From the NCBI RefSeq assembly GCF_019059575.1, contig NW_024881961.1, positions 368,501 through 432,500 on the forward strand: a stretch of DNA of 64,000 nucleotides, in the 5' to 3' direction. The notes under the pieces were generated by a model. That model saw only the letters and a list, made by a program, of their open reading frames with translations. It made no database searches and had not been told where the DNA came from. This document shows positions 7,274 to 60,513 of this stretch, one piece after another. The first letter of the stretch is position 1, and the number at the start of each line of letters is the position of its first letter. The translations under genes were made by a program, and so were the position numbers. The DNA is from Amphibalanus amphitrite (lineage: Eukaryota; Arthropoda; Thecostraca; Balanomorpha; Balanidae).

Positions 7274-7889
7274 GTTGCGACAAGTGTCGACAACGGCGAC
7301 GAGCTGCCCACGGCAGAGTAGCGACTTCTGCAGCTACGCGTGAAGGCAGCTCGACCACCCACCGGGAGGACCTCGCAGCACGCTCACACCGGCTGGTGGC
7401 TCTGCTGGCCTCGTGAGGCGGCTGGTTTGCTGCTGCTGGCTGGTGCTGGTGAGGACTGAGTCGCCCCTGCTCATCAGTGAGTGCTCTACTTCTGCTGATA
7501 TTTGGGGTAAGCGGGCTGTATGGTACTTGCAGTGGCGCAGTGACATTCTGATAAACGGTTCACAAAAACAGTGACTCTGGAGGCAAACTGGTGATCAAAT
7601 GTGAACTATCTTGCAAAGTGTGTGCCTTCATGGTAAATGAGTCGAAGAGAACAGTATCTTGAGAAGCGACAGACACTTAGTGCATCAGTGTGTGATCATT
7701 TATTGTGCTGTGAGTTATGCTGAGTATGGTTTCCATTGTGTTTGTGTTCGCTGATCTACTAAGGGGTTAAGGACAACCTGTCGATTGATAGAGACTCCAG
7801 GTTAGCATTGTTGCTGGTTAGTTCCAGTTTCCAGAAGAGCTTTCTAATTTGATTTGTGGTAGTTGGTTGTGCCCAGGCTCGGTCACGAG
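7274..7889 (+). other. untranslated leader of BEL/Pao element
   Basis: Lies between the 5' LTR and the first ATG that opens the polyprotein frame. It should hold the primer-binding site and packaging signals. I could not match a tRNA 3' end to the bases next to the LTR. Confidence 0.6.
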
Positions 7890-13964: not shown

Positions 13965-14005
13965 AATAAGTAATGTGACGCACATGGTGCGCACATGGGG
14001 GCGGG

Positions 14006-15153
14006 TGTAGGCGGCGCCGCTGCGGCGCGCGGTGGAACGGGGGTGCGGGCTCCCAGTCGTGCGCCGCTCCGCTGAAGCCGGCTCGCTCTTCTCTCTACCC
14101 CGGTTGCCTCCCCGCTCTGCCTGCCTGGAGAGCCGGGACTACCTCCCCTCGGTTTGCGAGTAGCATCGCCCATGGTCCTAGAGGTGGACATTTTCGTATG
14201 GCCTTTACTCTGTTTGTACTTGATTTTGCTGTACTTTGCGTTTTTCCGTTGTATCATTTGTACTATATTGATTGTCGTAAACGACCAATTTGAAATGTAT
14301 CGCGTGATTATTTGATAGTTTGAATATTCGATGGCTCATTGTTCGTTGGCGTATTGTTAGAAGGCAATTTCTGCAATACTTCTCAGTACTCGTTTGTTGT
14401 GTGACGTGCCACCCGGCTCTATGCCCGGCCATAATTCTGGATCATTCGCGCTGATGGCGGCAGAGGCGGTCGTGTCGTGTCTGTGTTTGCGCGAGCGATG
14501 GTAAGTGGCTGAGCAGTTGTATTTCACTATGATGCGTTTAAATGTGTAATCTGTTAGCTCGTATAGATATTCTGTTGTCAATTTCATATGAGACGTTTCA
14601 GCGCCAATATGATGAAAACCGAGACTATTATACTTTGCACTAAGGTAAACGACAATGGACCTGACTGGTGTCTGGATTCGTAGATATGGCGTCGGAGATG
14701 TGAGGCTGGCTTGGAAGGATGCCTCTGGATGTATGGACGTTAGCCGCGAAGCGACCCAGAAGGCACATTTGTCGGTAGGTCACGAAACGTCACGAATGTT
14801 AGGAAAGGTCACGAAATGTCACGAATGTTAGGAAAGGTCACGAAATGTCACGATTAATTTGATGTCAGTACGCAGGGATGCTGTGTTATCTGTGGTAGGG
14901 CCCCTCACGGCCTGTTTTGGTGTATCATTTATTGGTACGTTTAAGCCCTCTTGTTTGCCCACCCCTTTCGTTTATTTTGTACGTTTGGTAACGCTTATTT
15001 ATACGTCCTTTGATTTGTGTATTGTGTTTCGTTCCCAGCAACGACTGTTACTCTCGAGGTCGTGTGGGCTATCCACTCAGCTCACTCGGTCCAATAAACG
15101 GTCCGTTAAGACATACTGGATTTCGACACGCTGGGTCTGGAGATGCGGCTACA
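14006..15153 (+). repeat. 3' LTR of BEL/Pao element
   Basis: Complete 1,148-bp LTR from TGTAGG to GGCTACA, without the insertion seen in the 5' LTR. It is therefore the reference for the empty site of that insertion. Confidence 0.95.
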
Positions 15154-40974: not shown

Positions 40975-41387
40975 GGTCGCGCCAGTGCAGCACGCGGTAC
41001 GCTGTGGGGACACCGTTCGCGCATGTGGTGTGACCACAGCGCAATGGTGTAGTGTTTGGTTTATCAAGCCCCGAAGTGGGTGGAGGGAGGGAGAGAGGGG
41101 GTGTAGAGGCGGAGCGAGGATAAGAACTATGGGGGGCAACGACACACATGTTGAGGTAGGGGGTGATTTTGTGGTTGATATGAGGCGAAAATATGGTCGC
41201 CGCGGTGGGTTTATGGGTGAATAATTGTCTTCAACTTTGTGTTGAAACGGGTAAGGTAAACTATCAGCGAGGGATACCTACGAATGCTTTTTTGGTCGGT
41301 AGGTATAAGATACCGGTACGAGAGGTGTCAAAAGAGAACAGCGGAAAATGGCGGAGACCGTCGTTCGCTCAGAGATCGTTTTCAGTA

Positions 41388-42571
41388 GGGGAGAGTGGGG
41401 AAAGATGCCCAGGGGTTTGTAATGTCATAAATTATTCGAAAATGACAATCGGAAAGCAAAAACTTGGAGTTTCAATGGTAGCCGACATCATTTTTATCCA
41501 CAAAATACCACACTTTTGTGCTTGAAATGTTATAACTTTTTTGTTATTGATCATTTTCCTGAAGTAGTGAAAGGGGGCATCTTACCCCAGAGGGTGGGAA
41601 AGACGCCCCCTGGGGTTGGGTAAGATGCCCCTCCGCACTATAAGTGACAAAAATGGGCACGTGAATTGCCTGAACGAATCAGTTGCACTCGAGCCTGCGG
41701 TAGACACTTAAACGCCATCATAAGGGCCCTAAAAAGTCGTCGTGAGGGGCTTCAGAGGTCATCGTGAGGGCCATCATAGTCCAGCGCGGCCAAACAAGCC
41801 TCCGTGGTGACGTTCGGAGACCGTTGTGGGGCCCTTATTAGGTCTTAATGAGACTTGAGGCCTGAGGGCCCTCAAGACCATCGTGGGGACCTCAGATGCC
41901 AGCGCGGCCCGTGGGGTCAGCGTGGGAGCTCTCAAAGAGTGTCGTAAGGGGCATCGGAACCAATAATGGGACCCACAGATACCGTCGTGACTGTGAGGGC
42001 TCTCAGAGTCAGATGCCGCCCAAAAAATCGGCGTATGGGCCAAGAGACCGATATGGCGAGCACCTGACCGTATTGGACTCTCATGATGGTCCCAAATCGG
42101 CTTTTGTCTCTCTTCACAAGTATGTACTAAATGATCCGATGAGTTCCTTGAAGGATTTAGGGGGGCGTCTTTCCCCATCAGGTCAGGGGGTATCTTTCCC
42201 CAAGGTACCGAATTGACATTTAATCAGAAACTTGTTAATACTAAAACTACACCCTGAAACAACTAGTTGGGACAAAGTACACTCATATAAATGTATCACG
42301 ACAATAGCAAGGGACTTAATTTTGTTTACAATTTCTTTGATATTCACAATGTTTTGACACTAAAATATTTTTTGAAAGCAGCACATATAAAACAAGCAAT
42401 CACTAGCCTAGCCCACCGTTGACCAACTGAGCTTGGCAAATTTTTGTGCAGTTAACAAGGAAGTTTTCCGCTTTACGCTAAAAACATTAATTTCCAGGTA
42501 ATATTTTTTGTTTTGCCGTTAGAGGGGGTGGGGCGTCTTTCCCACCCTGGGCATCTTACCCCACTCTCCCC
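41388..42571. mobile_element. TA-flanked MITE with GGGGAGAGTGGGG ends
   Basis: 1,184 bp between TA at 41386-41387 and 42572-42573. Terminal inverted repeats GGGGAGAGTGGGGAAAGATG and the inverse of GGGGAGAGTGGGGTAAGATG. The interior repeats the motif as CATCTTACCCC, GGGTAAGATGCCCC and GGGGGCGTCTTTCCCC. Same end logic as 19520-20492 (TA, then GGG-AG--TGGGG-AAGA-GCCC). It lies about 400 bp upstream of the fucosidase gene. Confidence 0.75.
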
Positions 42572-42834
42572 TAACGTTGAGTCCGAAGTCACGAAGAGGT
42601 TTGAGAAAGTGCGGTGACTGTTTCCATCAGGTAAAAAGAGTAGCTGTTTGAGAAGCCTGGGATATTCTTTCCGGTCCATTTATTGACACTACGCGGTGGT
42701 ATATACCTTTAACCCTCGCGCTTACAGAGAAGTGGACGAATGGACCCCTTCCCGCGGTCTTTGGCAAACAAATCAGTCAAAAAGCGGCCGATCGCGACGA
42801 AACTTTCAGTACCTACTACCTACCCTCGCGTTAA

Positions 42835-43323
42835 AGGGACCCTCCCACCTTAACATTAGTTTTGAGTTGAGATAGCCAAATTGGTGGCCATGACCTGCAA
42901 ATACCGGTTTGGACACTCACAACATCGAAAAATGCTTTAATTCGAAGATATGAAATTTCAAACTTGCAGTTTTCGGATTCTAAGGGGCTAATGCATTGGA
43001 ATGCCCCCTTAGAATTTGTGACGTCAGCGGAGATCTAACGATTTTTAAATCTTAGACTAAAACCATCGTTAACACGTGGTGGTATACGCTGCTTTGCGCG
43101 CAACGTCTGCCGCACTTTAGGGCTGCCAAATTATTGCTTCCAAATAAAGTCGCTAGTAACAGGGGAGATCCCAAAAAGTAAACAAAAGTAAAAGCCTAAT
43201 ATCTTGAAAACCAGTGAATATTTTTCGGTGAAATTTGGTAGATATTCGTTTTCGCTCTTTCTGAACCAAGGGACATCACTTTCATGCCAATTCATTAACT
43301 TTTTTGAAGGTGGGAGGGTCCCT
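42835..43323 (+). mobile_element. TTAA-flanked MITE, copy 1 of AGGGACCCTCCCACCTT family
   Basis: 489 bp between TTAA at 42831-42834 and 43324-43327. Terminal inverted repeats AGGGACCCTCCCACCTT perfect over 17 bp. Copy 2 lies inverted at 61656-62134 and matches through the body (GTTGAGATAGCC, GATTTTTAAA-like and AAGTAAACAAAAGTAAAAG motifs). Non-autonomous. Confidence 0.8.
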
Positions 43324-43369
43324 TTAATCAATTTTACATCTACCCTAAAAATGTCATGACCCTGTCCCA

Positions 43370-44416
43370 AATGACCTTTGACCTGTTACCTGTTTCTCGA
43401 GACCATATGTGGCCGGCATCGCGATTCGACGTATGCCGGCTCACATTATCCGCGCATTTCCAGTCTTTTTGTGGTTGTAAATGATCAAACATATGAAATG
43501 ATGCTGGCCCCATGCATTATGGTGGGTGCCAAGGTCACGTGAAGGTCAGGTCAAGGTAACTGACCTTTGATGACCTTAATTCACTTTATCGAGTGCTGCT
43601 TGTTGCCAGGGTTTTTGGAGCTGATTTCGAATTTACACCCATTTGAACATTCACGAAGTAGTTTTGAAGCCTTCGCTATGTTACGAAGCTGTCAGTGGCG
43701 GTTGACACTTACGGATAGTAGGTATAGGTGGATGGGGGAGCTACTCTTCCTCGGGTTCTAAGCACACCTTATGATGTATAATTTACCGCAAGTATGAAAA
43801 TTTCAAACCTATGGTTTATCGAGCTAGGTCACTAATTCACATCAAGTGACGGAACTTAAAGAAGGGGGCCAGCGCACTGGAAACAGCCTAAAGCTATTCC
43901 TACCACATGGAATCGTACATTCGTACACTCTTAGCAGGACTAGGTGCTAAAATTGTGTATTTTGACCTTGCACTGCTTTATAAATGTCACATGAGACCAA
44001 GGTCGCTTGATGTTATAGGACGATTTAGGTGTTTTTCGTCTGTAAGTCAAATTAGACTAGCGGGTCGGAAAAGCGGTAGGTGAAATCAGAAAGACCTGAA
44101 GAATCGAAAGATATGCAGCATGACCTCCTCGACCAGTTTCGTGACCCGAACGGCTTTGACCTGACCTTGACCTGAGATCAACATCCACGCTGATCTTTCA
44201 TAGATCAAAAGTAGATCATCGGACACAATGGTGCTACAATCATAACGCTGCGATTATTTTTGGCGAAGCTATTTACCAAAGACCAAACCCTTGCCTTGGA
44301 GCCTACCGAGCCTTTGGCCTGAGGCCTCAGAGTTGGGTACCATTATGTGATTTGTGTAACGGCCCAAACGCTCAGCTTTTTCCATGAGGCTGTAACTCAG
44401 GGGCGCGAAACAAGAG

Positions 44417-44418
<2 letters not shown>
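43370..44418. repeat. TGACCT/AGGTCA-rich repeat DNA
   Basis: Many TGACCT, TGACCTTGACC and AAGGTCA words among AT-rich text, like 1-800 and 2060-2430. No gene is recognisable. Confidence 0.5.

Positions 44419-44419
<1 letters not shown>

Positions 44420-44508
<89 letters not shown>
44420..44508. repeat. (GA)n microsatellite
   Basis: About 44 perfect GA units. Confidence 0.97.
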
Positions 44509-44509
<1 letters not shown>

Positions 44510-44575
44510 CGTGCGCGGGAGCTGGGTAGAGTACGGGAGCAGGGCAGAGTACCGGGAGCAGCCGCCTGGCTCCCA

Positions 44576-44584
44576 GCCGACAGA
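44576..44584. repeat. 9-bp target duplication of giant element, left
   Basis: GCCGACAGA directly outside the left terminal inverted repeat; the same word directly outside the right one at 56843-56851. Confidence 0.8.
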
Positions 44585-45263
44585 ACGTTTATATACTTAG
44601 CTTCAAATTCAAATTCAGATTCGAAATTCATATTCGATGGAAAAAATGATAAAAACGGACCCCTTAGAATCTCACCAAATTTACACCAGCCACTCAGCAT
44701 GACCTGGTCATCACAGAATAAAATTATCTAAGCTCGGCAAGCCCTGGGGGCTGAGATATTAGGGGTCAAAGTTCAAGGTCATTAAGGGCGGACCCCTCAG
44801 AATTACCTCAAAATTTGCACACAGATGCAAATTGACATGCTGAGCACGATGGGCATAAAATCTAAGCCCGGCAAGCCCTGACCTAGAAGTTAGGTCAGGT
44901 CAAAGGTTGCAGCCACGTGGAGGTCACGTGACCCATTTTAAAGCGGACCCCTCAGATTTTGATGAATTTTTGTGAACTGATACATCTAGACACCCTCATT
45001 AATATCCTAAATTATCTAAGTTCGGCAAGCTCTGGAGGCTGAGATATGAGGGGTCAAAGGTCAAGGTCATTTGAGAGCGGACCCCTTCAATTTTTGTTAA
45101 AACGTAAATCACCCCTCAACTTTGTCTTCTGAATTTAATGGTAAAAATTTCTAAGCTCGGCAAGCCTTAGAAAAGCCAGAATGAGTATTTAGAAAACGAG
45201 CATTTGTATTCCAATATGGCTGACAGGTAGGTATTGTGGCGCATCAATGACATAATTGACGCG
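44585..45263 (+). repeat. left terminal inverted repeat of giant element
   Basis: Contains three to four subrepeats of about 150-180 bp, each with a (T)CTAAGCTCGGCAAGCC core, a GGGGTCAAAGGTCAAGGTCA segment and a GCGGACCCCT segment. The outer 100 bp match the right arm without a difference; further in I count roughly one mismatch per 30-40 bp. Confidence 0.85.
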
Positions 45264-46627
45264 TAAAATGTAAACAAACTGCATGCTTCCAAATGAAGCA
45301 ATTCCTTTACAAATCGATCGATTTTACTATTTCCTTCATAGATAGTGGCCGTTTAATGTCTATTGATGGATTACGAGTCTTCGACCTCATACCTATCTTC
45401 ATAACGGGCCAGTGACCCCTGATATAAGCCCTTGGTGGATGAATGACCTCTAATCTTTTCTAGTACCTACAGGTCACACACATTCGACCTATCCCCGAAG
45501 ATCGCTAACCATAGGTGTCACTTCAACTTGAGCTCTCACATCTCCTAACTCAGATCTGACCTGAACTGAGATGAATGACGCGTCACGGGCCTCTGACCTC
45601 CGTCATGTGGGTCATTGACCTTTGACGTACCCAGAAAGGAATCACTTACCTGACATGTTAAAAGGACCAGTGACCTCTGATTTGTCTGAACTCTCGCCCG
45701 TGTGCGGTGTGCGGGTGAAGGTGCCGGAGGTACGTTGGAACCCCGCCCGCCGCCGTTCGGGCCCCTGATGGGAGTTAGAGCTTCGCGGAAAAACGAGTGT
45801 ATTGCGAGCGTTAAGAGTTATCTTAGGATAACCAGTTTTAGTCCTGGGTCAGTGACCTCAGTTGACCTCGTATGACCTGCACACCAATATGACCTGCTTT
45901 CACATACGTCACAGACATTATTCCATAAAGATGACTCAGTCGTTTTCATCTCATTGTCACTTTGTAGGTCGCACCATTTATTGATGAACCAAGTTAGATA
46001 ACCCGACGACTTCACGTGAGGATGCATAGTAACATGTCACAATCGGCATTAAGCAGCCTCGCCTCGGCAAACACTAACGAATAGAAAACACTCCCCAGTC
46101 CCCACGCCTCCGCCAGTGATAATAAAGCCTACAAAACGTTAACTGGTCAACTCCGAGCAGTCGCGCAGCACTAGTCAATCAATGAGTACATTGCGACGCC
46201 GTCAACATGGGCGGGTCCCGTGGTGGACAGTGTCAAGTCGTGCTTAGCTACGATACGTAACATAAGATACGGCCGCGCCCGTACAGATCACCCGCGCCGT
46301 ACGGCCCCAAACACGACCAAACACTGGCGGCGGTACACGGGCTCGCTCGGACCGCTCCAGTCGCTGCTGGGTGACTCACTTCAAGCTGAGCTCAGCACAT
46401 CACTCAGAGATCCTACCTGAGCGTCCGGCGGCGACGGCGAGGTGCCGTCTCACCGGGCTGGCCAGCAGACTGAGGCAGCTGGCGCACGGCAGCGTACCGT
46501 GCTCATATTGCGCCGGCACCACGCCGATGGCACCTCGCAACACGAGCTGAACAGCTCCGTCCGGTACTCGAGCACCTTGCGGCTGTCGCGGTAGCGTTTG
46601 AACACATTAAGTGGGTTCATGTCCTCT
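45264..46627. other. left inner part of giant element
   Basis: The first half carries many TGACCT words. A GC-rich part at 46200-46620 has open frames on the minus strand (for instance one with VFKRYRDSRKVLEYRTELF, and a shifted frame with GAIGVVPAQYEHGTLPCASC) that look like coding text but match nothing I know; they may be another captured gene fragment. Confidence 0.4.
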
Positions 46628-46654
46628 GTTGTTGTTGTTGTTGTTGTTGTTGTT
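46628..46654. repeat. (GTT)9 microsatellite, tail of a retrotransposon fragment
   Basis: Nine GTT units directly at the 3' end (minus strand, AAC) of the RNase H fragment, consistent with a simple-repeat tail of a non-LTR element. Confidence 0.85.
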
Positions 46655-47090
46655 TCCCTCCAGCCCTAGGGCGTATCCTGCCGGCTCTGGAGGGGGACGA
46701 AGGCGGCACCCAGGGCCGCTACTGCGTCGATGCTGCGCAGGTCCTCGTGGGTCGGGTGTATAGTTCCGAGCACTCGGAACCGGCAGTTGCACCAGGGCGG
46801 GACACCGCATCAGCGCGTGGGCCGAGGTGTCTGCTTCCTCACGACAGAGCCCACACCGGCAGTTGGCGATACCAGCCGTCGGGCCAGGCCGCTCTGGTCC
46901 TCGCACGCGCCAGCCTTGCCGCTGCTCTCTGGATCGTTTTGGTGTCCAGTGGTGTGTGTCTGAGTTCTGGTCCAGGGCGGAGGTCTCCTCCGCCAGGGTG
47001 TCTGCCCTCTCATTTCCAGGAAGGCCGCAATGCGAGGGGACCCACTGGAGGTGAATGGGTCGTCCCGCGGACGACGGCGGCTGGTTGTAC
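46655..47090 (-). pseudogene. RNase H and C-terminal fragment of a non-LTR retrotransposon
   Basis: The minus-strand text reads PIHLQWVPSHCGLPGNERAD and then TLAEETSALDQ, the last motif of the RNase H domain found in I/R1/Outcast-type elements, followed by a Cys-His knuckle (CRCGLCREEADTSAHALMRC) and the (AAC)9 tail. Upstream RT is absent. Several frames overlap because the region is GC-rich. Confidence 0.75.
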
Positions 47091-47381
47091 GAGTGGTGCG
47101 CGGTGACGTGGTGGCCCCCGACGCCGGCCGCCGCCGCACAGCGTGCGACAGGATGTTGTTGCCTGTTGGTGCCATACCTACTCCTGTGGCAAGCAACAGA
47201 ATCAGAGCGTCAGCAGGGGCGCATGTGATCAACAACGCTGGATATTCGCATATTATTTCAACAGACAAAGAGAAAAACAGCACAGGAGAAGAATGAATAG
47301 CAACCATAGCAGCCCTTTCCCTGACGTCCACACGCATGTAGTTGGATTCACCCTATCTGAAGGGTCAGGCCGCCAGCTCAC

Positions 47382-49030
47382 CTCGGTGGGCGGCTGGTGA
47401 CTCGGTTTGGGCGGCGCGCCGGGCGCCGTCGGCAGCGGCGGTGGCGGTGGCTGCTGCTGCTGGGGCTGCGGCGGCGGCGTCGGTACCACTGTGTCCGAGT
47501 AGGTCTGGAAGCCGCCAGTGGGCGTGTGCACCGCGCTGTGGTCACCTAGCCCGGCGCCATCATCGAGACGTGTAGGTACTGCCGGCGAGAGCATGCCAAT
47601 CAGCGTCATGATGGTTGTATGAGCAGTGGCGAAACGAAGCTTAAGTAATGAACAATACGGGGTCAGTTAATCAGGCCATATGAAACTCAGCAGAACTAGA
47701 ATTTGCATTTCCCTACAAGATACAAAAATAAAACAGCTTTAAAACATAATTTTCATCAAAAGTCACTACAAACAGGTACACAAAACTACCATTAAATCGA
47801 ACATCTCAACAAAACTCAGTTTAGATGACTATATTGCGCTAAAAAATGACTATATTAGATTGACTATATGTACAGAGAGAAACGGGAGTCAGACACTCGA
47901 CAGGGGACAGCGGCGGCTGCAGGACAGGGAACGGCAGCGCTCGCCGCTTGGTCAAATTAAACGTGCTCAAAATTGCGTAAGGTGACGTTAGTTTTTGCAG
48001 ACGATACAAATAGCAAATAAGTAAAGTTGAGAATATGTAAGAGCAAGAACAGCATAAGTATGACATAAGACAGCCAGCTTTAACTTACTTTTGCGCCTTG
48101 AACTCCTTCATTATATCGAGGAAGTCGTTGTGGACCTGTGGGTTGTTCTGGAACTTGGACTTGACCTGGTTCTGGTAGGAGAGCACGTCTTCCACCTTGA
48201 GTCGGTGGTAGCTAGGCTGAACAGCGCCGGCATCGGCGTCGGCGGCGGCGGCTTCCCGTCGCTGTCGGCACCCATCACCATGGCGGCTGCCGTCATATTC
48301 GGCTGGTGGGCGATCGGCCCGGTCGTCTGCCTGACAGGAGGTACGGTACATACGGGTCGGAAGCGGTTAGAGGAGAAGACAGCGTCAGGTAGCGTCGGGA
48401 TTCATGTTTCGGTTTTATCCGAATAAGCCATCGGTTCCGCAATTTGGCCAAAAAAGCTGCAGACAGAATGCATGAATATCCAGACATTCACCGGATCAAC
48501 CAGTTACATATCTGAGTCTGCTTCAACACTCAAGCAAAGCCGCATATCCCACAGCATTACGAAATAAGCATGAGTGTGGGATTGGGGCCCAGACCAACTA
48601 GGGACCACGTCCGATCCTTCAGTCTTGGGCGGGACTCTTTTCAGCGCGCTGACACTGTGAAGTAGCCGAGTCGGCCGCCGGGACTCACCTGGGGCGCAGA
48701 GGAGTGCGGCACCGGCCCAGCGGCGGTAGAGGCCGGTTCTTCGCTGGCGCCGGCAGAGTACTACAACGAGCCACCGCCGCCTTCACTCTTCACCTAGAGG
48801 TTCTCGCCGTAGGCAGCGTGCACCGGATAGGCGCCGAGGCCCGCCGCCAGCGACCCATGCTGGTTCTACATGATGCCGTCTAAGGCACCGTCAGCCGCGC
48901 CAGGCTCGGCTGGGCGGCCAGACTGGGCGACGAGAAGGGGCGGCTCGGCGGGAGAGCGGCGCACCGGCGGCACCACGCAAACCACGGCTGACGAACCGTC
49001 ACTACTCTCCGGCGACTCCTGGCGCTTCAT
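47382..49030 (-). pseudogene. Sin3-like corepressor fragment, decayed, with introns
   Basis: Three minus-strand exon-like pieces. Piece 1 (48689-49030) starts MKRQESPES, ends with a CAG before GTGAGT, and is phase 0, but has TAG codons at 48866-48868, 48794-48796 and 48761-48763. Piece 2 (48089-48330) follows an AG acceptor in phase 0 and reads [18 protein letters not shown] and [19 protein letters not shown], the first half of the PAH1 domain that in Sin3 proteins binds transcription factors; it ends at GTAAGT. A core Leu of PAH1 is Gln here. Piece 3 (about 47382-47560) is Pro/Gln-rich (FQTYSDTVVPTPPPQPQQQQ) and ends GAG before GTGAGC. The second half of PAH1 is missing between pieces 2 and 3. 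Intron retention argues for a genomic copy, not a retrocopy. Confidence 0.65.
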
Positions 49031-49155
49031 CACATTCTCGACACGGCACAGAAACTGCGGGCACACGGACACATACCGACCACACGTCAGCCGTCCGGCG
49101 CCGCCGCTCTACCGACCACGGACACCTGACAGGAGCTGACTGACAAGGAGCTCAG

Positions 49156-50655
49156 AGGGCAGGGCAGGGCAGGGCAGGGCAGGGCAGGGCAGGGCAGGGC
49201 AGGGCAGGGCAGGGCAGGGCAGGGCAGGGCAGGGCAGGGCAGGGCAGGGCAGGGCAGGGCAGGGCAGGGCAGGGCAGGGCAGGGCAGGGCAGGGCAGGGC
49301 AGGGCAGGGCAGGGCAGGGCAGGGCAGGGCAGGGCAGGGCAGGGCAGGGCAGGGCAGGGCAGGGCAGGGCAGGGCAGGGCAGGGCAGGGCAGGGCAGGGC
49401 AGGGCAGGGCAGGGCAGGGCAGGGCAGGGCAGGGCAGGGCAGGGCAGGGCAGGGCAGGGCAGGGCAGGGCAGGGCAGGGCAGGGCAGGGCAGGGCAGGGC
49501 AGGGCAGGGCAGGGCAGGGCAGGGCAGGGCAGGGCAGGGCAGGGCAGGGCAGGGCAGGGCAGGGCAGGGCAGGGCAGGGCAGGGCAGGGCAGGGCAGGGC
49601 AGGGCAGGGCAGGGCAGGGCAGGGCAGGGCAGGGCAGGGCAGGGCAGGGCAGGGCAGGGCAGGGCAGGGCAGGGCAGGGCAGGGCAGGGCAGGGCAGGGC
49701 AGGGCAGGGCAGGGCAGGGCAGGGCAGGGCAGGGCAGGGCAGGGCAGGGCAGGGCAGGGCAGGGCAGGGCAGGGCAGGGCAGGGCAGGGCAGGGCAGGGC
49801 AGGGCAGGGCAGGGCAGGGCAGGGCAGGGCAGGGCAGGGCAGGGCAGGGCAGGGCAGGGCAGGGCAGGGCAGGGCAGGGCAGGGCAGGGCAGGGCAGGGC
49901 AGGGCAGGGCAGGGCAGGGCAGGGCAGGGCAGGGCAGGGCAGGGCAGGGCAGGGCAGGGCAGGGCAGGGCAGGGCAGGGCAGGGCAGGGCAGGGCAGGGC
50001 AGGGCAGGGCAGGGCAGGGCAGGGCAGGGCAGGGCAGGGCAGGGCAGGGCAGGGCAGGGCAGGGCAGGGCAGGGCAGGGCAGGGCAGGGCAGGGCAGGGC
50101 AGGGCAGGGCAGGGCAGGGCAGGGCAGGGCAGGGCAGGGCAGGGCAGGGCAGGGCAGGGCAGGGCAGGGCAGGGCAGGGCAGGGCAGGGCAGGGCAGGGC
50201 AGGGCAGGGCAGGGCAGGGCAGGGCAGGGCAGGGCAGGGCAGGGCAGGGCAGGGCAGGGCAGGGCAGGGCAGGGCAGGGCAGGGCAGGGCAGGGCAGGGC
50301 AGGGCAGGGCAGGGCAGGGCAGGGCAGGGCAGGGCAGGGCAGGGCAGGGCAGGGCAGGGCAGGGCAGGGCAGGGCAGGGCAGGGCAGGGCAGGGCAGGGC
50401 AGGGCAGGGCAGGGCAGGGCAGGGCAGGGCAGGGCAGGGCAGGGCAGGGCAGGGCAGGGCAGGGCAGGGCAGGGCAGGGCAGGGCAGGGCAGGGCAGGGC
50501 AGGGCAGGGCAGGGCAGGGCAGGGCAGGGCAGGGCAGGGCAGGGCAGGGCAGGGCAGGGCAGGGCAGGGCAGGGCAGGGCAGGGCAGGGCAGGGCAGGGC
50601 AGGGCAGGGCAGGGCAGGGCAGGGCAGGGCAGGGCAGGGCAGGGCAGGGCAGGGC
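49156..50655. repeat. (AGGGC)300 perfect pentanucleotide satellite
   Basis: 1,500 bp of the unit AGGGC, counted as 300 copies, with no substitution that I can find. The plus strand has GGG runs spaced by CA and can form G-quadruplexes; the minus strand would be CCC-rich. Open frames across it (Pro-Ala-Leu-Pro-Cys) are by-products of the period, not genes. Confidence 0.97.
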
Positions 50656-50656
50656 A

Positions 50657-53600
50657 TGCAGTGAGAGACAGTGAGAAGCGGTGAGAGGCAGTGAGAGGCA
50701 GGGCATGAGGCGGTGAGAGGCAGTGAGCAAAGGAAGGCAGTCAGAGGCAGTGACAGGCGGTGAGAGGCAGTCAGTGAGCAGAGGCAGGCAGTCAGAGGCA
50801 GGACAGGAGGCAGTGAGAGGCGGTGAGAGGCAGTGAGAGGCGATGGGAGGCAGTCAGTGAGCAGAGGTAGGCAGTCAGAGGCAGGGAAGGAGGCAGTGAG
50901 AAGAGGTGAGAGGCAGTGAGAGGCAGAGAGAGGCGACGAGAGGCGGTGAGAGGCAGTGAGAGGAGGTGAGAGGCAGTCCGTGAGCAGAGGAAGGCAGTGA
51001 GAGGCAGTGAGAGCCGAGAGGCGGTGAGAGGCAGTAGAGGCGATGAGAGGCAGTCAGTGAGCAGAGGTAGGCAGTCAGAGGCAGGGCAGGAGGCAGTGAG
51101 AGGCAGTGAGAGGTGGTGAGAGGCAGTGACATGCAGTGAGAGGCGGTGAGAGGCGGTGGGAGGCGATGAGAGGTTGTGACATGCAGTAAGAGGCGGTGAG
51201 AGGCAGTAGAGGCGGTGAGAGGCAGTCAGTGAGCAGAGGCAGGCAGTCTGAGGCAGGGCAGGAGGCAGTGAGAGGCGGTGAGAGGCAGTGAGAGGCGGCG
51301 AGAGGTGGTGAGAGGTAGTGACATGCAGTGAGAGGCAGTGAGAGGCGGTGAAAAGCAGTGAGAGGCAGGGAGAAGAAGTGAGAGGCAGTGAGAGGCGGTG
51401 AGAGGCAGTGAGAGGCAGTAGAAGCGGTGAGAGGCAGTCAGTGAGCAGAGCCAGGCAGTCAGAGGCAGGGCAGGAGGCAGTGAGAGGCGGTGAGAGGCAG
51501 TGAGAGGTGGTGAGAGGTAGTAGAGGCGGCGAGAGGCAGTCAGTGAGCAGAGGCAGGCAGTCAGAGGCAGGGCAGGAGGCAGTGAGAGGCGGTCAGAGGC
51601 AGTGAGAGGCGGCGAGAGGTGGTGAGAGGTAGTGACATGCAGTGAGAGGCGGTGAGAAGCAGTGAGAGGCAGTGAGAAGAAGTTAGAGGCAGTGAGAGGA
51701 AGTTAGAGGCAGTGAGAGGCAGTGAGAGGCAGTGAGAGGCAGTAGAAGCGGTGAGACGCAGTCAGTGAGCAGAGCCAGGCAGTCAGAGGTAGGGCAGGAG
51801 GCAGTGAGAGGCGGTGAGAGGCAGTGAGAGGCGGTGAGAGGCAGTGAGAGACAATGAGAGGCGGTGAGAGGCGGTGAGAGGAAGTAAGAGGCAGTGAGAG
51901 GCAGTAGAGGCGATGAGAGTCAGTCAGTGAGCAGAGGTAGGCAGTCAGAGGCAGGGCAGGAGGCAGTGAGAGGCAGTGAGAGGTGGTGAGAGGCAACGAC
52001 ATGCAGTGAGAGGCGGTGAGAGGCAGTGGGAGGCGATGAGAGGTTGTGACATGCAGTAAGAGGCGGTGAGAGGCAGTAGAGGCGGTGAGAGGCAGTCAGT
52101 GAGCAGAGGCAGGCAGTCAGAGGCAGGACAGGAGGCAGTGAGAGGTGGTGAGAGGCAGTGAGAGGCGGCGAGAGGTGATGAGAGGCAGTGACATGCAGTG
52201 AGAGGCAGTGAGAGGCGGTGAGAGGCAGTGAGAGGCAGTAGAGGCGGTGAGAGGCAGTCAGTGAGCAGATTCAGGCAATCAGAAGCAGGGCAGGAGGCAG
52301 TGAGAGGCGGTGAGAGGCAGTGAGAGGTGGCGAGAGGTGGTGAGAGGTATTGACATGCAGTGAGAGACAGTGAGAGGTGATGAGAGGCAGTGACATGCAG
52401 TGAGAGGCGGTGAGAGGCGGCGAGAGGTGGTGAGAGGTAGTGACATGCGGTGAGAGGCAGTAGAGGCGATGAGAGGCAGTCACTGAGCAGAGGTAGGCAG
52501 TCAGAGGCAGGGCAGGAGACAGTGAGAGGCAGTGAGAGGTGGTGAGAGGCAGTGAGAGGCGGCGAGAGGTGGTGAGAGGCAGTGACATGCAGTGAGAGGC
52601 GGTGAGAGGCAGTGAGAGACAATGAGAGGCGGTGAGAGGCGGTGAGAGGAAGTAAGAGGCAGTGAGAGGCAGTGAGAGGCGGTGAGAGGCAGTGAGACAA
52701 TGAGAGGCGGTGAGAGGCGGTTGGAAGCGGTGGGAGGCGGTGAGAGGCTGTGACATGCAGTGAGAGGCGGCGAGAGGCAGTGAGAGGCGTTGAGAGGAAG
52801 TCAGTGAGCAGAGGCAGGCAGTCAGAGGCAGGGAAGGAGGCAGTGAGAAGAGGTGAGAGGCAGTGAGAGGCGGCGAGAGGCAGAGAGAGGCGGCGAGAGG
52901 CAGTGACATGCAGTGAGAGGCAGTGAGAGGCGGTGAGAGGCAGTGAGAGGCAGTAGAGGCGGTGAGAGGCAGTCAGAAGCAGGGCAGGAGGCAGTGAGAG
53001 GAAGTCAGTGAGCAGAGGCAGGCAGTCAGAGGCAGGGAAGGAGGCAGTGAGAAGAGGTGAGAGGCAGTGAGAGGCGGCGAGAGGCAGAGAGAGGTGGTGA
53101 GAGGCAGTGACATGCAGTGAGAGGCGGTGAGAGGCAGTGAGAGACAATGAGAGGCGGTGAGAGGCGGTGAGAGGCGGTGGAAGGCGCTGAGAGGCTGTGA
53201 CATGCAGTGAGAGGCGGCGAGAGGCAGTGAGAGGAAGTCATTGAGCAGAGGCAGGCAGTCAGAGGCAGGCAAGGAGGCAGTGAGAAGAGGTGAGAGGCAG
53301 TGAGAGGCAGAGAGAGGCGGCGAGAGGCGGTGAGAGCCAGTGACATGCAGTGAGAGGCAGTGAGAGGAATTTAGAGGCAATGAGAGGCGGTGAGAGGTAG
53401 TGAGAGGCGGTGAGAGGCAGTCAGTGAGCAGAGGCAGGCAGTCAGAGGCAGGGCAGGAGGCAGTGAGAGGCGGTGAGAGGCGGCGAGAGGTGGTGGGAGG
53501 TAGTGACATGCAGTGAGAGGCAGTGAGAGGCAGTGAGAAGCAGTGAGAGGCAGTGAGAGGTGGTGAGTGGCGATGAGAGGCGGTGAGGGGCGGTGAGAGG

Positions 53601-55258
53601 CGGTGAGAGGGGTCAGTGAGCAGAGGCAGGTAGTCAGAGGCAGGGAAGGAGGCAGTGAGAAGAGGTGAGAGGCATTGAGAGGCGGCGAGAGGCGGCGAGA
53701 GGCGGTGAGAGGCAGTGACATGCAGTGAGAGGCAGTGAGAGGAAATTAGAGGCAATGTGAGGCAGTGAGAGGCAGTGAGAGGCGGTGAGAGGCAGTGAGA
53801 GGCAGTGAGAGGCGGTGAGAGGCGGCGAGAGGCAGTGAAAGGCGGTGAGAGGAAGTCAGTGCAGAGGCAGGCAGTCAGAGGCAGTGAGAAGAGGTGAGAG
53901 GCAGTGAGACGCGGCGAGAGGCAGAGAGAGAGGCGGTGAGAGGCGGTGAGAGCCAGTGACATGCAGTAAGAGGCAGTGAGAGGAAGTTAGAGGCAATGAG
54001 AGGCGGTGAGAGGTAGTGAGAGGCGGTGAGAGGCAGTCAGTGAGCAGAGGCAGGCAGTCAGAGGCAGGGCAGGAGGCAGTGAGAGGCGGTGAGAGGCGGC
54101 GAGAGGTGGTGGGAGGTAGTGACATGCAGTGAGAGGCAGTGAGAGGCGGTGAGAAGCAGTGAGAGGCAGTGAGAGGTGGTGAGTGGCGATGAGAGGCGGT
54201 GAGGGGCGGTGAGAGGCGGTGAGAGGGGTCAGTGAGCAGAGGCAGGTAGTCAGAGGCAGGGAAGGAGGCAGTGAGAGGAAGTTAGAAGGCAATGAGAGGC
54301 AGTGAGAGGCAGTAAAGGCGGTGAGAGGCAGTCAGTGAGCAGAGGCAGGCAGTCAGAGGCAGGGCAGGAGGCATTGAGAGGCAGTGAGAGGCAGTGAGAG
54401 GCGGCGAGAGGTGGTGAGAGGTAGTGACATGCAGTGAGAGGCGGTGAGAAGCAGTGAGAGGCGGTGTGAGGCAGTAGAGGCGGTGAGAGGCAGTCAGTGA
54501 GCAGAGGCAGGCAGTCAGAGGCAGGGCAGGAGGCAGTGAGAGGCAGTGAGAGGCGGTGAGAGGCAGTGAGAGGTTGTGAGAGGCAGTCCGTGAGCAGAGG
54601 AAGGCAGTGAGAGGCGGCGAGAGGCGGTGAGAGGCAGTGAGAGGCAGTAGAGGCGATGAGAGGCAGTCAGTGAGCAGAGGTAGGCAGTCAGAGGCAGGGC
54701 AGGAGGCAGTGAGAGGCAGTGAGAGGTGGTGAGAGGCAGTGAGAGGCGGCGAGAGGTGGTGAGAGGCAGTGACATGCAGTGAGAGGCAATGAGAGGAAGT
54801 TAGAGGCAATGAGAGGCGGTGAGAGGTAGTGAGAGGCGGTGAGAGGCAGTCAGTGAGCAGAGGCAGGCAGTCAGAGGCAGGGCAGGAGGCAGTGAGAGGC
54901 GGTGAGAGGCGGCGAGAGGTGGTGGGAGGTAGTGACATGCAGTGAGAGGCGGTGAAAAGCAGTGAGAGGCAGTGAGAGGTGGTGAGTGGCGATGAGAGGC
55001 GGTGAGGGGCGGTGAGAGGAAGTCAGTGAGCAGAGGCAGGTAGTCAGAGGCAGGGAAGGAGGCAGTGAGAAGAGGTGAGAGGCGGCGAGAGGCAGTGAGA
55101 GGCGGTGAGAGGCAGTGAGAGGCGGTGAGAGGCAGTAGAGGCAGTCAGTGAGCAGAGGCAGGCAGTCAGAGGCAGGGCAGGAGGAAGTGAGAGGCGGTGA
55201 GAGCCGGTGGGAGGCAGTGAGAGGCAGTGAGAGGCAGTCAGTGAGCAGAGGAAGGCAG
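50657..55258. repeat. GTGAGAGGCR minisatellite with higher-order block
   Basis: About 4.6 kb built from the 10-bp unit GTGAGAGGCA/GTGAGAGGCG with many variants. About 28 times the array is broken by a conserved block of roughly 45 bp that starts GTCAGTGAGCAGAGGCAGGC and continues with AGTCAGAGGCAGGGCAGGAGGC; block spacing runs from about 80 to 230 bp. The words GACATGCAG and TAGAGGCGGTGAG mark further subfamilies. Frames of up to 400 codons on the minus strand come from the 10-bp period and are not genes. Confidence 0.95.
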
Positions 55259-55406
55259 GGGTTACATAACACCTGGAGTTACAGCATCCATATGAAAAAC
55301 TCATACAAAAATTATGTGTGAATCAAGATTATTTGACAAAAGCTGCTCATCTTTATCAACTACCTACTTTGCGGGCTGGTACAGTTTGTTGGTATGTCAC
55401 ATCACC

Positions 55407-55560
55407 CTAGGCCCTCTTAAAGCTAGTTAGGTCAGGTGCGGTCGCAACATTTTCTGCGAGGCCATTCCAGATGACGATGAGAATACATTGGGTGGAGAAA
55501 GATTGTAGACGAACATCTGGTGTAGCATGTGGCACGCATACCTTGTGACAATAGCCTTGA
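55407..55560 (-). pseudogene. C-terminal relic of a non-LTR reverse transcriptase
   Basis: Minus-strand text VPHAT.DVRLQSF and IVIWNGLAENVATAPDLTSF then KRA before a stop matches the ending common in non-LTR reverse transcriptases (WN.L...V..A..L..FK). The region upstream up to 55760 may be more of the same element but is not readable in one frame. Confidence 0.55.
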
Positions 55561-56162
55561 GTACAGTTCCAAAATTGGATAGTCTGCACATAGGAGCCTT
55601 CCTGCAACTGAATACAGAGGGGTGTTCGCGGGCATCGTAAACTGCTGAGTTCACTGTGTGTGGTATGTACAGCAAGCTTAGGGGTAGGGGAAGGGTAACC
55701 GGTTCTGATGTCACAGCTGCATGTCATGCGGTGGACGGCCTGTGGCCAGTCCCGACCAACCACAGCGGTTGCTGTGTGCGGTGACGGAAGAATGGCTTAG
55801 GGACGCAGTGGGCGGAGCTTAGAGCTTGTGTATGGTCCGACTGCACACAGGGCCCGTGAACAGCCCTCAGATAGGTCATAGGTTTCAAAAGTACCTATAA
55901 TAATCAGCTAGCATAAAAACTCATTCTAAGAATTGTGGCTGATAACCCTGATTCTGAAGCCACGCCCATTCCATGGATCACACACATCATATCACCTTCA
56001 CCTTAACTTACACACCACGGCATGTTATATCAATATGTTATATGTATATACCTACACTCAAGGCCCTATATACCCTTACCCAAGATTTACCCTTACCTAC
56101 ACCATGGAACCCATGGGGCCTACACTACAAAATAAAATGAATATGGCGCGGTGCCTATTTAC

Positions 56163-56842
56163 ACGCGTCAATTATGTCATTGATGCGCCACAATACCTAC
56201 CTGTCAGCCATATTGGAAAACAAATGCTCGTTTTTCTAAATACTCATTCTGGCAATTCTAAGCCTTGCCGAGCTTAGAAAATTTTACCATTAAATTCAGA
56301 AGACAAAGTTGAGGGGTGATTTAAATTTTAACAAAAATTGAAGGGGTCCGCTCTCAAATGACCTTGACCTTTGACCCCTCATATCTCAGCCCCCAGAGCT
56401 TGCCGAACTTAGATAATTTAGGATATTAATAAGGGTGTCTAGATGCATCAGCTCACAAAATTTCATTGAAATCTGAGGGGTCCGCTGTAAAAGGGTCACG
56501 TGACCTCCACGTGGCTGCAAACTTTGACCTGACCTAACTTCCAGGTCAGGGCTTGCCGGGCTTAGATTTTATGCCCATCGTGCTCAGCAGGTCAACTTGC
56601 ATCTGTGTGCAAATTTTGAGGTAATTCTGAGGGGTCCGCCCTCAATGACCTTGAACTTTGACCCCTGATATCTCAGCCCCCAGGGCTTGCCGAGCTTAGA
56701 TAATTTTATTCTGTGATGACCAGGTCATGCTGAGTGGCCGGTGTAAATTTGGTGAGATTCTAAGGGGTCCGTTTTTATCATTTTTTCCATCGAATATGAA
56801 TTTCGAATCTGAATTTGAATTTGAAGCTAAGTATATAAACGT
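56163..56842 (-). repeat. right terminal inverted repeat of giant element
   Basis: Inverted match of 44585-45263 over its full length, same subrepeat order. Confidence 0.85.
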
Positions 56843-56851
56843 GCCGACAGA
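56843..56851. repeat. 9-bp target duplication of giant element, right
   Basis: GCCGACAGA directly after the right terminal inverted repeat; pair of 44576-44584. Confidence 0.8.
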
Positions 56852-57480
56852 TGCCTTTTAAATGCCGACCGATTTGACGGGTTCTTATATTCGCGAGCGC
56901 CTCTGTTACCACGAGGAAGCTAATAAATGAAACGACGCAACGCATGCCAATTTTTTAAGCAATATCATGCATACTTATAGCCTGGATGACGAAATTTGGT
57001 GCCGATGTGATGAATTTACCTCGATGGTGTCGATTTGGCGGGATTTAAACGTCCCAGTCTGCCCATTCGACGGCACGGTGCGTGGAATAGCGGCGACTTC
57101 GTCCGTACCACAAGACCCATTGGTCCAGTGGTCGTCTTTGACCAACGCGCGACATGACACGTGACCTCTGCTACCCCGTGCGGGCCTCTCCGTGGTGGCA
57201 CAAGGGTCAAGTGGACACCTGAGATCCATCAACAGGTAAGCCCCTCCCCCTCCCATCCCCTCCCCGTGGCGGGCCGCACACGCGTCCTGTTTCTAGGCGG
57301 GCACGGCTCCGGCGGCATTCCACGCAGGCAATGGCTTGGGGCGCAATTGCGTGCCTGCACTATCGTGTCCAAAGTCGAGCCGAGGGTGCAGTCGCCGGAT
57401 TGGAATCAGCCACAGGTGGGCGACCAGCGGGCTACGGGAGGAGTTCGTAGGGGATACAACCCTCAGTAAATGTCGGGAAT
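56852..57480. other. gene-free stretch
   Basis: Sequence between the giant element and the Penelope-like composite. A plus-strand frame of 65 codons at 56967-57164 is open but unrecognised. Nothing else seen. Confidence 0.4.
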
Positions 57481-57493
57481 AATAGTTGGGAGG
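57481..57493. repeat. 13-bp target duplication of Penelope-like composite, left
   Basis: AATAGTTGGGAGG, repeated in the same orientation at 60924-60936. Confidence 0.85.
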
Positions 57494-57863: not shown

Positions 57864-58775
57864 CTATTTTTTTAGCACAATGTCCCATATTGGGCTCAGC
57901 TGGACGCCACCGCTGTCGAGATTCATTGACGGGCGCAGCTGTCGGATCTCGATGGCCTCCCTGATTTTACGTTTTTTCCAGTGGCGTTCGATGGCTAGGG
58001 TTCTCGCCTCGAACGGGTTCAAGTCACCGCCACAGGTACAAAAGTGTCTGGCCGTCGCTGACGTATCGCAGCGTCCGTGCTTGATATCGGCGGTGTGCTC
58101 CTTCAATCTGTCCTGTTTTGGTCGCCCTGACTCTCCGATATAGCTGGAGCCGCACGAGCACTTTATCTCATATACGGCCCCTTTCTTCTTGCTCTGCTCC
58201 ACGGGATCTTTGACGTTAACCAGGTGACCCCTCAATCGCTTGGATTTGTGAGCTACCTTGATTCTGTGTGGCCTGAGAACCTTGGCTATCCTTTCGCTGA
58301 GACCTGGGACGTAGGGCACTGCCGCATAGGCTTCTTGGTCTCTGGCGGCGGCTTCCCCCTGTACGGTCTGGCTGGCGTCACGGCGTCTCATAGCCCTCTT
58401 GATAAACGGCTCCGGATAGCCATTGGCTACGAACACATCCCGTATCTTGCTCTTCTCCTCCTTCACACTTGACATGTCGCTGCAGACCCGTCTTGCTCTG
58501 GCTTCCATGCATCTTATAAGACCAGCTTTCATGGCCGCGGGGTGGCTCGAGTTGTACTTCAGGTACACGTTTGATGCGGTCGCCTTCCGGTAGACTGAGG
58601 TGCCCAGCCGACCTTCTGACCTCTGGACAAGAACGTCCAAAAACGGCAGTTTCTGGTCCACCTCCCGCTCCAGTGTAAACTGGATACTTGGGCAGAAATC
58701 GTTCAACCGCTGGTGGAACTCTTGCAGAGCTTCATCGCCGTGGGGCCACAGGATGAAAGTGTCGTCAACTGCCAG
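57864..58775 (-). pseudogene. Penelope-like element, RT end plus GIY-YIG endonuclease (left copy)
   Basis: Frame from VDDTFILWPHG (the second part of the RT YxDD motif, cut at the junction) to the stop at 57864. It runs through QKLPFLDVLVQR, YRKATASNVYLKY, and RVCSDMSSVKEEKSKIRDVF, into the GIY-YIG nuclease: VYEIKCSCGSSYIGESGRPK, then a His and a Glu (RLKEHTADIKHG, EARTLAIERHWKKRK) and a C-terminus ending IVLKK. Penelope-like elements use this nuclease for insertion. The frame has no stop, but the fragment lacks most of the RT and so cannot act. Confidence 0.88.
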
Positions 58776-60513
58776 AAACTGCCGTTTTTGGACGTTCTTG
58801 TCCAGAGGTCAGAAGGTCGGCTGGGCACCTCAGTCTACCGGAAGGCGACCGCATCAAACGTGTACCTGAAGTACAACTCGAGCCACCCCGCGGCCATGAA
58901 AGCTGGTCTAATAAGATGCATGGAAGCCAGAGCAAGACGGGTCTGCAGCGACATGTCAAGTGTGAAGGAGGAGAAGAGCAAGATACGGGATGTGTTCGTA
59001 GCCAATGGCTATCCGGAGCCGTTTATCAAGAGGGCTATGAGACGCCGTGACGCCAGCCAGACCGTACAGGGGGAAGCCGCCGCCAGAGACCAAGAAGCCT
59101 ATGCGGCAGTGCCCTACGTCCCAGGTCTCAGCGAAAGGATAGCCAAGGTTCTCAGGCCACACAGAATCAAGGTAGCTCACAAATCCAAGCGATTGAGGGG
59201 TCACCTGGTTAACGTCAAAGATCCCGTGGAGCAGAGCAAGAAGAAAGGGGCCGTATATGAGATAAAGTGCTCGTGCGGCTCCAGCTATATCGGAGAGTCA
59301 GGGCGACCAAAACAGGACAGATTGAAGGAGCACACCGCCGATATCAAGCACGGACGCTGCGATACGTCAGCGACGGCCAGACACTTTTGTATTATTGCTT
59401 CCAAATTAAGCTTGATCCTCACTTCGCTCCAGTACTGTAGTGAATACCCTACCGAAGCCCGAGTTTTACCGAGATACCCGGCTCGGCGAGCCGTGCACGG
59501 TAGGCCAGAGGTTTAACATCCGGGGCCTTGTGACATCCGGGAGTTTCAAACGCGCGGGTAGGGGTGCGGACGTGACCTGTGGTCGGTCAGCGATCGGCGA
59601 TTTTGGCCTCGGGCGCCTCTGGCGTCAGAGGCATTGCCGGGGCTCGGGCGGCGCAGCGCCCGGCGAGAGACGGGCCGCGCGGCCGCAACCGTGGTGCAGC
59701 TGGACGCGCGATCGGAACGGAATTCAGCCAGGACACGCATCGTAGGTCAAAGGTCAAGGGCACATGTGGCCGGCGGGCGAGACCAGCGGTCGAAACAGAA
59801 GTCGCTGTGAGGCGAGGGCAGTGATCCGACCCCGGCCCGGGCCTGGACGGTGTGTGAATGTTTTTTTTTTTAGTTCTGCTGCGGAGTGCTTTAACTGCGC
59901 TAGTTTTAATATTGCGTTAAATAATCATAACCACAGTTTCATTTAAAACAAAGATGCCAATATAATCGTAACATATATTATAAATATTTATCAGATAATT
60001 ATTTACCCGCGCCAGGCAGGTGCTCGGCGCCAACCACGTCGCACCCCCCGCTCCCCACCCGGTCATCGGCCTGACCACTGCACTGTGGCGCTCTCATCGT
60101 CCCTGATTGGATAGAATGTGACCCAGCTATGCGTCACGCTCACGTGCCCGCCATTATCACAGGTCACACCCGTGTCCCCGCCCCAGGCGTGGACTGACAG
60201 TCACAAGGTCGACGCACTGCTTCAGTCTGACACGCACCTCACCGGGACAGCTACCCTGGCGACACGGGAGGGGCTCGGGAGGGTATTCAATGCAGTACTA
60301 GAGCCAGACGCGAATCAAGCTTAATTTGGAAGCAATAGTACCTGTGGCGGTGACTTGAACCCGTTCGAGGCGAGAACCCTAGCCATCGAACGCCACTGGA
60401 AAAAACGTAAAATCAGGGAGGCCATCGAGATCCGACAGCTGCGCCCGTCAATGAATCTCGACAGCGGTGGCGTCCAGCTGAGCCCAATATGGGACATTGT
60501 GCTAAAAAAATAG
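58772..60513 (+). pseudogene. Penelope-like element, second copy, broken by an insertion
   Basis: Plus-strand frame from CQKLPFLDVLVQR to the GIY-YIG core, interrupted after TARHFC at about 59391 by the 947-bp TIR element, and resumed at 60341 (CGGDLNPFEARTLAIE) to a TAG at 60511-60513. Apart from the insertion the text equals the left copy almost residue for residue. Truncated further than the left copy: it begins about 40 codons later in RT. Confidence 0.85.
59392..60338. mobile_element. 947-bp TIR element nested in right Penelope-like arm
   Basis: Ends TTATTGCTTCCAAATTAAGC and the inverse of CTATTGCTTCCAAATTAAGC; the similarity continues imperfectly for about 60 bp (CAGTACTG..TGAATACCCT). 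TA stands outside both ends (59390-59391, 60339-60340), and the left arm shows the uninterrupted target. A GC-rich inside with an AT-rich centre, no transposase: a TA-targeting non-autonomous DNA transposon. Confidence 0.85.

Follow-up and report, generated by a model that had tools for sequence, protein, structure and literature searches.

One question raised by a 64,000-nucleotide stretch of the genome of the barnacle Amphibalanus amphitrite (the window; C464:368501-432500 of an 807.55-Mb assembly) is how a block of some 12 kb, bounded by two long inverted arms, came to lie within it. An earlier reading, made from the letters alone (the sequence-only reading), had proposed that the block was left by one transposition of a very long Mutator-like element. 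The evidence assembled here makes it very probable that the block, 12,258 bp in length, is a member of a family of giant, non-autonomous DNA transposons of the foldback or Pack type, with 680-bp internally repeated terminal inverted repeats (TIRs, or arms) and 9-bp target-site duplications (TSDs). Coordinates without a contig name are those of the window, and the features are collected in Table 1.

The two arms differ at 24 of 681 alignment columns (22 substitutions and two indels), a similarity far beyond chance (blastn E=0.0), and are identical over their outermost 103 bp and innermost 56 bp. The exact match of the outermost bases had been recognised at the outset, with the left arm drawn one base short, at 45263 instead of 45264. 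A perfect 9-bp direct repeat, GCCGACAGA, lies directly outside both arms and is not found within ~30 bases at either inner arm end, also as first read. In 2,000,000 random draws, two places of the window matched at 9 of 9 bases with a frequency of 1.7e-4, which the tandem arrays inflate. Inverted termini together with a target duplication from one insertion place the block, which measures 12,258 bp between the duplications and 10.9 kb internally, among the class II TIR transposons. Internally repeated TIRs are a mark of foldback elements (PMC3169594, PMC4079207). Each arm contains four tandem sub-repeats, in which GGACCCC recurs at arm positions 73, 206, 361 and 495 and CGGCAAG at 151, 285, 439 and 574, and the starts of the sub-repeats are 133-155 bp apart both in the window element and in a sister element on contig C581; such long, internally repeated TIRs and the 9-bp duplications, perfect in nine of 11 family members and on C581, agree with a foldback (FB-type) assignment. 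The sub-repeats (also window 45051-45069) contain GGGTCAAAGGTCAAGGTCA, which we take to resemble a DR1 nuclear-receptor site, and AGGTCA-rich runs are also found near window positions 123-154 and 721-761.

Direct evidence for a single insertion comes from a second contig, C826, of which positions 94032-94668 match the right flank of the block (56852-57493) at 96%. Across this site, 401 bases comprise the left flank, a single GCCGACAGA and the right flank, with no arm, and the junction reads CCCA-GCCGACAGA-TGCC, the very empty site that the sequence-only reading had predicted. The flanks align there at 91% over 325 columns on the left, where the differences include a GA run, and at 98% over 98 columns on the right. 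Whether C826 represents the second haplotype or a recently duplicated locus, all 12,258 bp are absent from it with base precision. Because C826 carries the locus without the block and with a single GCCGACAGA, it demonstrates that the whole block was inserted in one event, a conclusion that also follows from ten sister elements that share the cargo of the window copy in unrelated 300-bp flanks. The single transposition first proposed is thus upheld by the empty site and the sisters alike.

A search of the genome with the 680-bp arm yielded 43 matches (40 of 90 candidates were scored, which makes the counts a lower bound) and at least 11 full inverted arm pairs, bounding elements of 10.5-19.4 kb. 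These are labelled E1 (the window copy) to E8, E10, E11 and E12, E9 being an unpaired arm on C134. Perfect 9-bp duplications flank nine of the 11 (E1-E8 and E11), E12 matches at eight of nine bases and E10 has none; among the ten sister copies, therefore, eight have perfect duplications of their own and one a duplication of 8/9. This is the outcome that the sequence-only reading had asked of such a search. It had also named solo arms with inner duplications of their own, or arms inserted separately, as contrary outcomes, and neither is seen at the window locus; the one-ended fragments found between two 9-bp repeats at other loci are pieces of an end, not the window's arm pair. The left cargo, the satellite and the right cargo are common to all 11 elements, and the 300-bp flanks of the 11 copies are mutually unrelated (0 matches). 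Furthermore, the left arms of E1-E8 form a cluster (support 0.996) from which right arms are excluded, and the majority base differs between left and right arms at 18 columns; the arms therefore travelled as linked pairs.

Over three unique cargo segments (gaps excluded; E3 absent from one), identity among the nine E1-type copies is 98.3-100%, and compared with E11 and E12 it is 96.8-98.0% (E12 absent from one). The close likeness of the nine in unique cargo marks a recent burst, and E11 and E12 are older. Dating the insertions by arm divergence was considered and rejected, as the arms within an element differ by 2.7-3.8% in ten of the 11 (0.4% in E10), compared with 0-1.7% in unique cargo among the nine E1-type copies. 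Arm divergence exceeds copy divergence, and the arm difference is therefore older than the burst. Several copies carry later nested insertions. Unpaired arms adjoin pieces of family cargo on C134 (90%), C46 (91%) and C117 (77%). Partial relatives of the arm (73-87%) are found on C2195, C16, C290 and C1749, with two outward-facing pairs ~38-40 kb apart on C2195, and are probably other subfamilies.

The host gene represented in the cargo is SIN3. The minus strand of 49125-47067 aligns with native SIN3 at C246:216072-218885 in five collinear pieces of 89, 81, 72, 69 and 78% identity, of which the 72% piece contains no recognised exon, and the PAH1 half-domain matches SIN3 chains with a best E of 2.2e-13. 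The collinearity extends to C246 position 219182 in E11 and E12, which suggests that the E1-type copies lost the far end of the fragment through a deletion at 47066/47067 that also cut the LINE copy. The possibility that the fragment is a coding SIN3 paralogue was rejected on shared stop codons, a frame break in exon 2 and the failure to find exon 3. Because exon 3 was not found in any of the 11 elements, and two exon-1 stops are present in all nine E1-type copies (the window copy has a third), the fragment was already dead when the burst began. A host gene fragment with introns, its parent gene elsewhere on C246 and distinct TSDs at several loci are the features by which multicopy Pack-TIRs and Pack-MULEs are recognised. 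Of the Pack-MULE arrangement first proposed, the Pack-type part accordingly stands, with a SIN3 fragment that retains introns inside a TIR element, and the Mutator part is still inferential. Two native SIN3 loci, near C246:216501-219587 and C347:280289-283375, are 93.9% identical over ~3.1 kb, and are either alleles on separate contigs or young paralogues. The same TTAA within the SIN3 fragment (window 47641-47644) was hit twice by different insertions, one of 548 bp in E5 (C915) and one of 8.5 kb in E6 (C62).

Table 1. Features of the window element (window coordinates) and one-ended pieces at other loci.
Feature	Position	Strand	Remarks
Left TSD, GCCGACAGA	44576-44584		Exact direct copy at 56843-56851; single copy at C826 empty site
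Left TIR, 680 bp	44585-45264	+	Four sub-repeats; at least 11 full elements in genome
Left cargo	45265-46618		Common to 11 copies; E5 without ~106 bp (46320-46425)
LINE 3' remnant (RNase H / zf-RVT-like)	46619-47066	-	(GTT)n tail side; start read by eye
SIN3 exon 5 remnant	47066-47176	-	Truncated in window copy; longer in E11, E12
Captured SIN3 fragment (pseudogene)	47067-49125	-	Intron-containing; exon 3 not found; collinear with C246:216072-218885 (native SIN3)
SIN3 exon 4 remnant	47382-47579	-	Linker between PAH1 and PAH2
SIN3 exon 2	48089-48219	-	First half of PAH1; then GTAAGT donor at 48088
SIN3 exon 1 remnant	48689-49030	-	
AGGGC array	49156-50656		~300 perfect copies
~10-bp satellite, GCAGTGAGAG type	50658-55238		In all 11 elements; same kind in sister C581
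Right cargo	55259-56162		Common to 11 copies
Right TIR, 680 bp	56163-56842	-	
Right TSD, GCCGACAGA	56843-56851		Direct copy of left one
One-ended piece	C79		32 bp; repeat TGAAACGGT
One-ended piece	C313 and C892		37 bp plus 6; repeat GCATTGCGG; near-identical contigs
One-ended piece	C1590		81 bp; repeat GAAACAAAA
One-ended piece	C117		279 bp; repeat CGAAAAAGA; complex locus with third copy

The satellites and retrotransposon relics that had been listed as cargo beside the intron-bearing exons were likewise recovered. The ~10-bp satellite spans ~3-6 kb in all 11 elements, and the AGGGC array, 1500 bp in the window copy, varies across the 11 from 0 to 1935 bp in total (runs of at least 10 units). 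The LINE remnant matches Pfam RNase_H at E=8.1e-5 and 23.3 bits, under the 25.8-bit cut-off, and zf-RVT at E=0.056, also under; at its 47066 junction E11 has 4.5 kb and E12 1.6 kb of extra sequence. The sister element on C581, 10,403 bp long, has ATGTTCGTCAAG as its termini, arms that measure ~1.43 kb and a perfect TSD, GCTAATTTC. It shares the four-unit arm spacing and the kind of satellite with E1, and no match to the left or right cargo of E1, SIN3 included, was found in it. Because C581 has arms and satellite with no match to the SIN3 cargo, this one element suggests, if it reflects an older state, that the satellite entered before SIN3.

A second outstanding question is how such cargo is acquired, and here the ends of the family found outside the 11 elements are informative. 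The exact 17-bp terminus occurs 33 times in the genome, compared with 0 occurrences of a control pattern read backwards; 21 of these ends belong to the 11 elements and 12 lie outside. At five of the 12, a stretch of one end is placed between two copies of a 9-bp repeat, corresponding to four loci (end pieces of 32-279 bp) if C313 and C892 are alleles. These five one-ended pieces may be the products of excision followed by one-sided copying and end joining. In the mechanism that we propose, a transposase supplied in trans, most likely of Mutator type (MULE), would recognise the conserved ends, excise the element and insert it at a new position; repair of the resulting gap by the host would sometimes be interrupted, leaving one-ended scars, and the same repair, by copying other templates, would have brought in SIN3 and probably the satellite. 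The broader picture, in which a giant foldback-type vehicle delivers preformed satellite arrays, together with a dead SIN3 fragment, to new sites in a recent, perhaps ongoing, burst, with one-ended scars preserving the interrupted gap-repair step of capture so that a single family records both capture and dispersal, is proposed tentatively, at just under an even chance. It is also possible that SIN3 and the satellite were gained by template switching during replication followed by transposition (FoSTeST), as proposed for multicopy Pack-TIRs such as Ssk-FB4 (PMC8277862), and we consider this route a real prospect, somewhat further short of even. The one-ended pieces of the barnacle family point instead to excision and interrupted copying, but no ectopic filler is shown in them, so capture by gap repair is unproven.

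At C117:255000-264999, which is a complex repair locus, the 279-bp arm end and a full-length arm (93%) adjoin three copies of CGAAAAAGA, and nearby the host flank has been duplicated, in inverted orientation as well. No second TSD adjoins the end fragments on C682 and C314 (98 bp), although C314 has another copy of the word at a distance of 3.3 kb. At C1741:105752 and C1830:97019, on near-identical contigs, 30 bp of end are immediately followed by a partial second ACGTTTATATAC, with no TSD copy.

The identity of the transposase bears on the superfamily. No transposase family was found in the cargo open reading frames (ORFs) given to Pfam (sets of five and nine, one ORF in both; frames of the AGGGC array and satellite and shorter ORFs lay outside this scope), and with no transposase gene of its own among them the element is classed as non-autonomous. 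A genome search for MULE domains listed at least 111 matches (150 of 204 candidates scored), many of which have long open frames. Among the matches listed, none lies within 20 kb of the 33 exact termini (exact ends only), and the one contig common to both, C808, has them 21 kb apart. A comparison of eight of the listed MULE loci (L045-L052, with 1.5 kb on each side) with the arm gave a best match of 20 bp (E=0.006, L048/L049), taken as chance. The MULE transposase gene with the same ends, which the sequence-only reading had suggested looking for, was thus not found near exact termini among the matches listed. Its Mutator-like label is thus unproven: it agrees with the 9-bp duplication and with the long arms and their internal repeats, an 8-11-bp TSD with long TIRs being features that are shared with FB elements and not diagnostic alone, and no transposase with these ends was found among those matches.

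Superfamilies of the P, hAT and Merlin types make 8-9-bp duplications, and the same transposon might be mobilised by one of them. Consistent with this, none of the listed MULE matches is near the family's ends, and foldback-type arms are also known in Galileo, of the P-element superfamily (PMC3573991). However, the combination of 9-bp duplications and long TIRs with internal repeats is that of Tm1, a Mutator/Foldback family with a putative transposase (PMC3169594), FB4 has been placed nearer to MULE (PMC8277862), and the genome contains many MULE genes whose open frames are long, so that a non-MULE superfamily seems rather unlikely. On TSD, TIR and the parallels to Tm1 and FB4, MULE is the most likely superfamily.

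Several observations weigh against a giant transposon family spread as proposed, in addition to the distance of the listed MULE matches from the exact ends. E10 lacks a TSD and its arms are homogenised (99.6% alike). One empty site was obtained, C826 only, and it could be a young duplicate locus instead of the other haplotype. Seven of the 12 outside ends (C46, C134, C314, C682, C1741, C1830 and the second end on C117) lack the one-ended pattern, on C313/C892 a tandem pair of the 9-bp word also lies in the flank, and the C117 locus is complex. Searches of the left and right cargo (45265-46618, 55259-56162) pointed to no origin: Pfam gave no match in six left-cargo ORFs and, in three right-cargo ORFs, one at E=0.14, far under the cut-off; of two left-cargo ORFs compared with the PDB, one had a match at E=0.23 and the other none; and Rfam gave no match in 44300-57100 at gathering thresholds. 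Spread of the block by segmental duplication or ectopic recombination would agree with the state of E10, and recombination probably does occur in the family, but such spread would be expected to copy flanks, which the 11 copies do not share over 300 bp, and the boundaries are exact to the base, with 9-bp duplications that differ between copies, making it very improbable as the origin of the block. Two independent short foldback or MITE insertions around ordinary host DNA (a SIN3 pseudogene and satellite) are scarcely credible, since, despite the solo and partial arm copies in the genome, all 11 elements hold the same cargo, nine have matching outer TSDs, and C826, unless it is an assembly error, refutes them by lacking the whole block beside a single TSD.

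Elsewhere in the window, an alpha-L-fucosidase gene lies at 39-41 kb, 100% identical to an Amphibalanus amphitrite protein over 97% of the query. A BEL/Pao retrotransposon at 6899-14853, with one long open frame (7863-13964) and a Pfam Pao peptidase, is bounded by two copies of one short tandem repeat (6899-6973, 14779-14853). Upstream of the block are two short inverted-repeat elements, read by eye at 41387-42573 and 42833-43326, one with ends GGGGAGAGTGGGG beside TA and the other with ends AGGGACCCTCCCACC beside TTAA. Just right of the block, at 57864-59516, the same GIY-YIG-like protein sequence (PLDKNVQKRQFL...) is found on both strands as an inverted pair, presumably of Penelope type; Pfam returned no family for the minus-strand frame of this pair.

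The capture of genes by cut-and-paste transposons has been studied extensively in plants, but there is little documentation of it in animals, for which the survey concerned elements under 5 kb (PMC8277862). The barnacle family consists of 10-19-kb units with a host gene fragment and kilobases of satellite, at least nine of them inserted between their own perfect duplications and one of these missing from a second contig. It offers a concrete route for seeding satellite arrays at new sites, its one-ended scars allow the gap-repair model of capture to be tested in an animal, and elements of this kind would escape surveys that set short size limits.

Helentrons are not TIR elements. Satellite-like repeats of Helentrons in the Pacific oyster (PMC7492417) nevertheless resemble the barnacle family in that mobile elements disperse tandem arrays; unlike the barnacle element, no intron-bearing gene fragment is mentioned in the available portion of that report. 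Tetris of Drosophila virilis (PMC4079207) likewise has foldback TIRs with internal tandem repeats and an association with satellite, but its satellite arose from TIR repeats, whereas the barnacle satellite differs from the arms and sits in the cargo beside a gene fragment. Closer in structure is Tm1 of root-knot nematodes (PMC3169594), with composite, internally repeated TIRs, non-autonomous members, arms several percent apart and TSDs that are mostly 9 bp (8-10 bp in 45 of 53 elements). It differs in a repeat motif of ~14 bp, as opposed to ~133-155 bp in the barnacle arms, and in having members that code for a putative transposase, none of which was found in the barnacle family.

No description of the barnacle element was found in the open-licence literature searched, judged by titles and the starts of abstracts. 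The survey of 100 animal genomes (PMC8277862) considered internal lengths of 100-5,000 bp (10 kb was tried in humans only) and recorded 370 Pack-TIRs with a median duplicated size of 224 bp and no Pack-MULE in the reference genomes; at 10.9 kb the window copy exceeds this range, which is a survey cut-off and not a biological limit. The same work describes the multicopy Pack-TIR Ssk-FB4 of Drosophila, which shares with the barnacle family FB-type TIRs of ~700 bp, TSDs of 9-10 bp, an intron-bearing host gene moved to several loci and a transposase that is unassigned in both. Unlike Ssk-FB4, the barnacle family comprises 11 elements of 10.5-19.4 kb, with a dead SIN3 fragment and kilobases of satellite, in a crustacean host. 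The barnacle family is thus of the same kind as the Pack-TIR Ssk-FB4, but larger, satellite-carrying, more numerous and crustacean.

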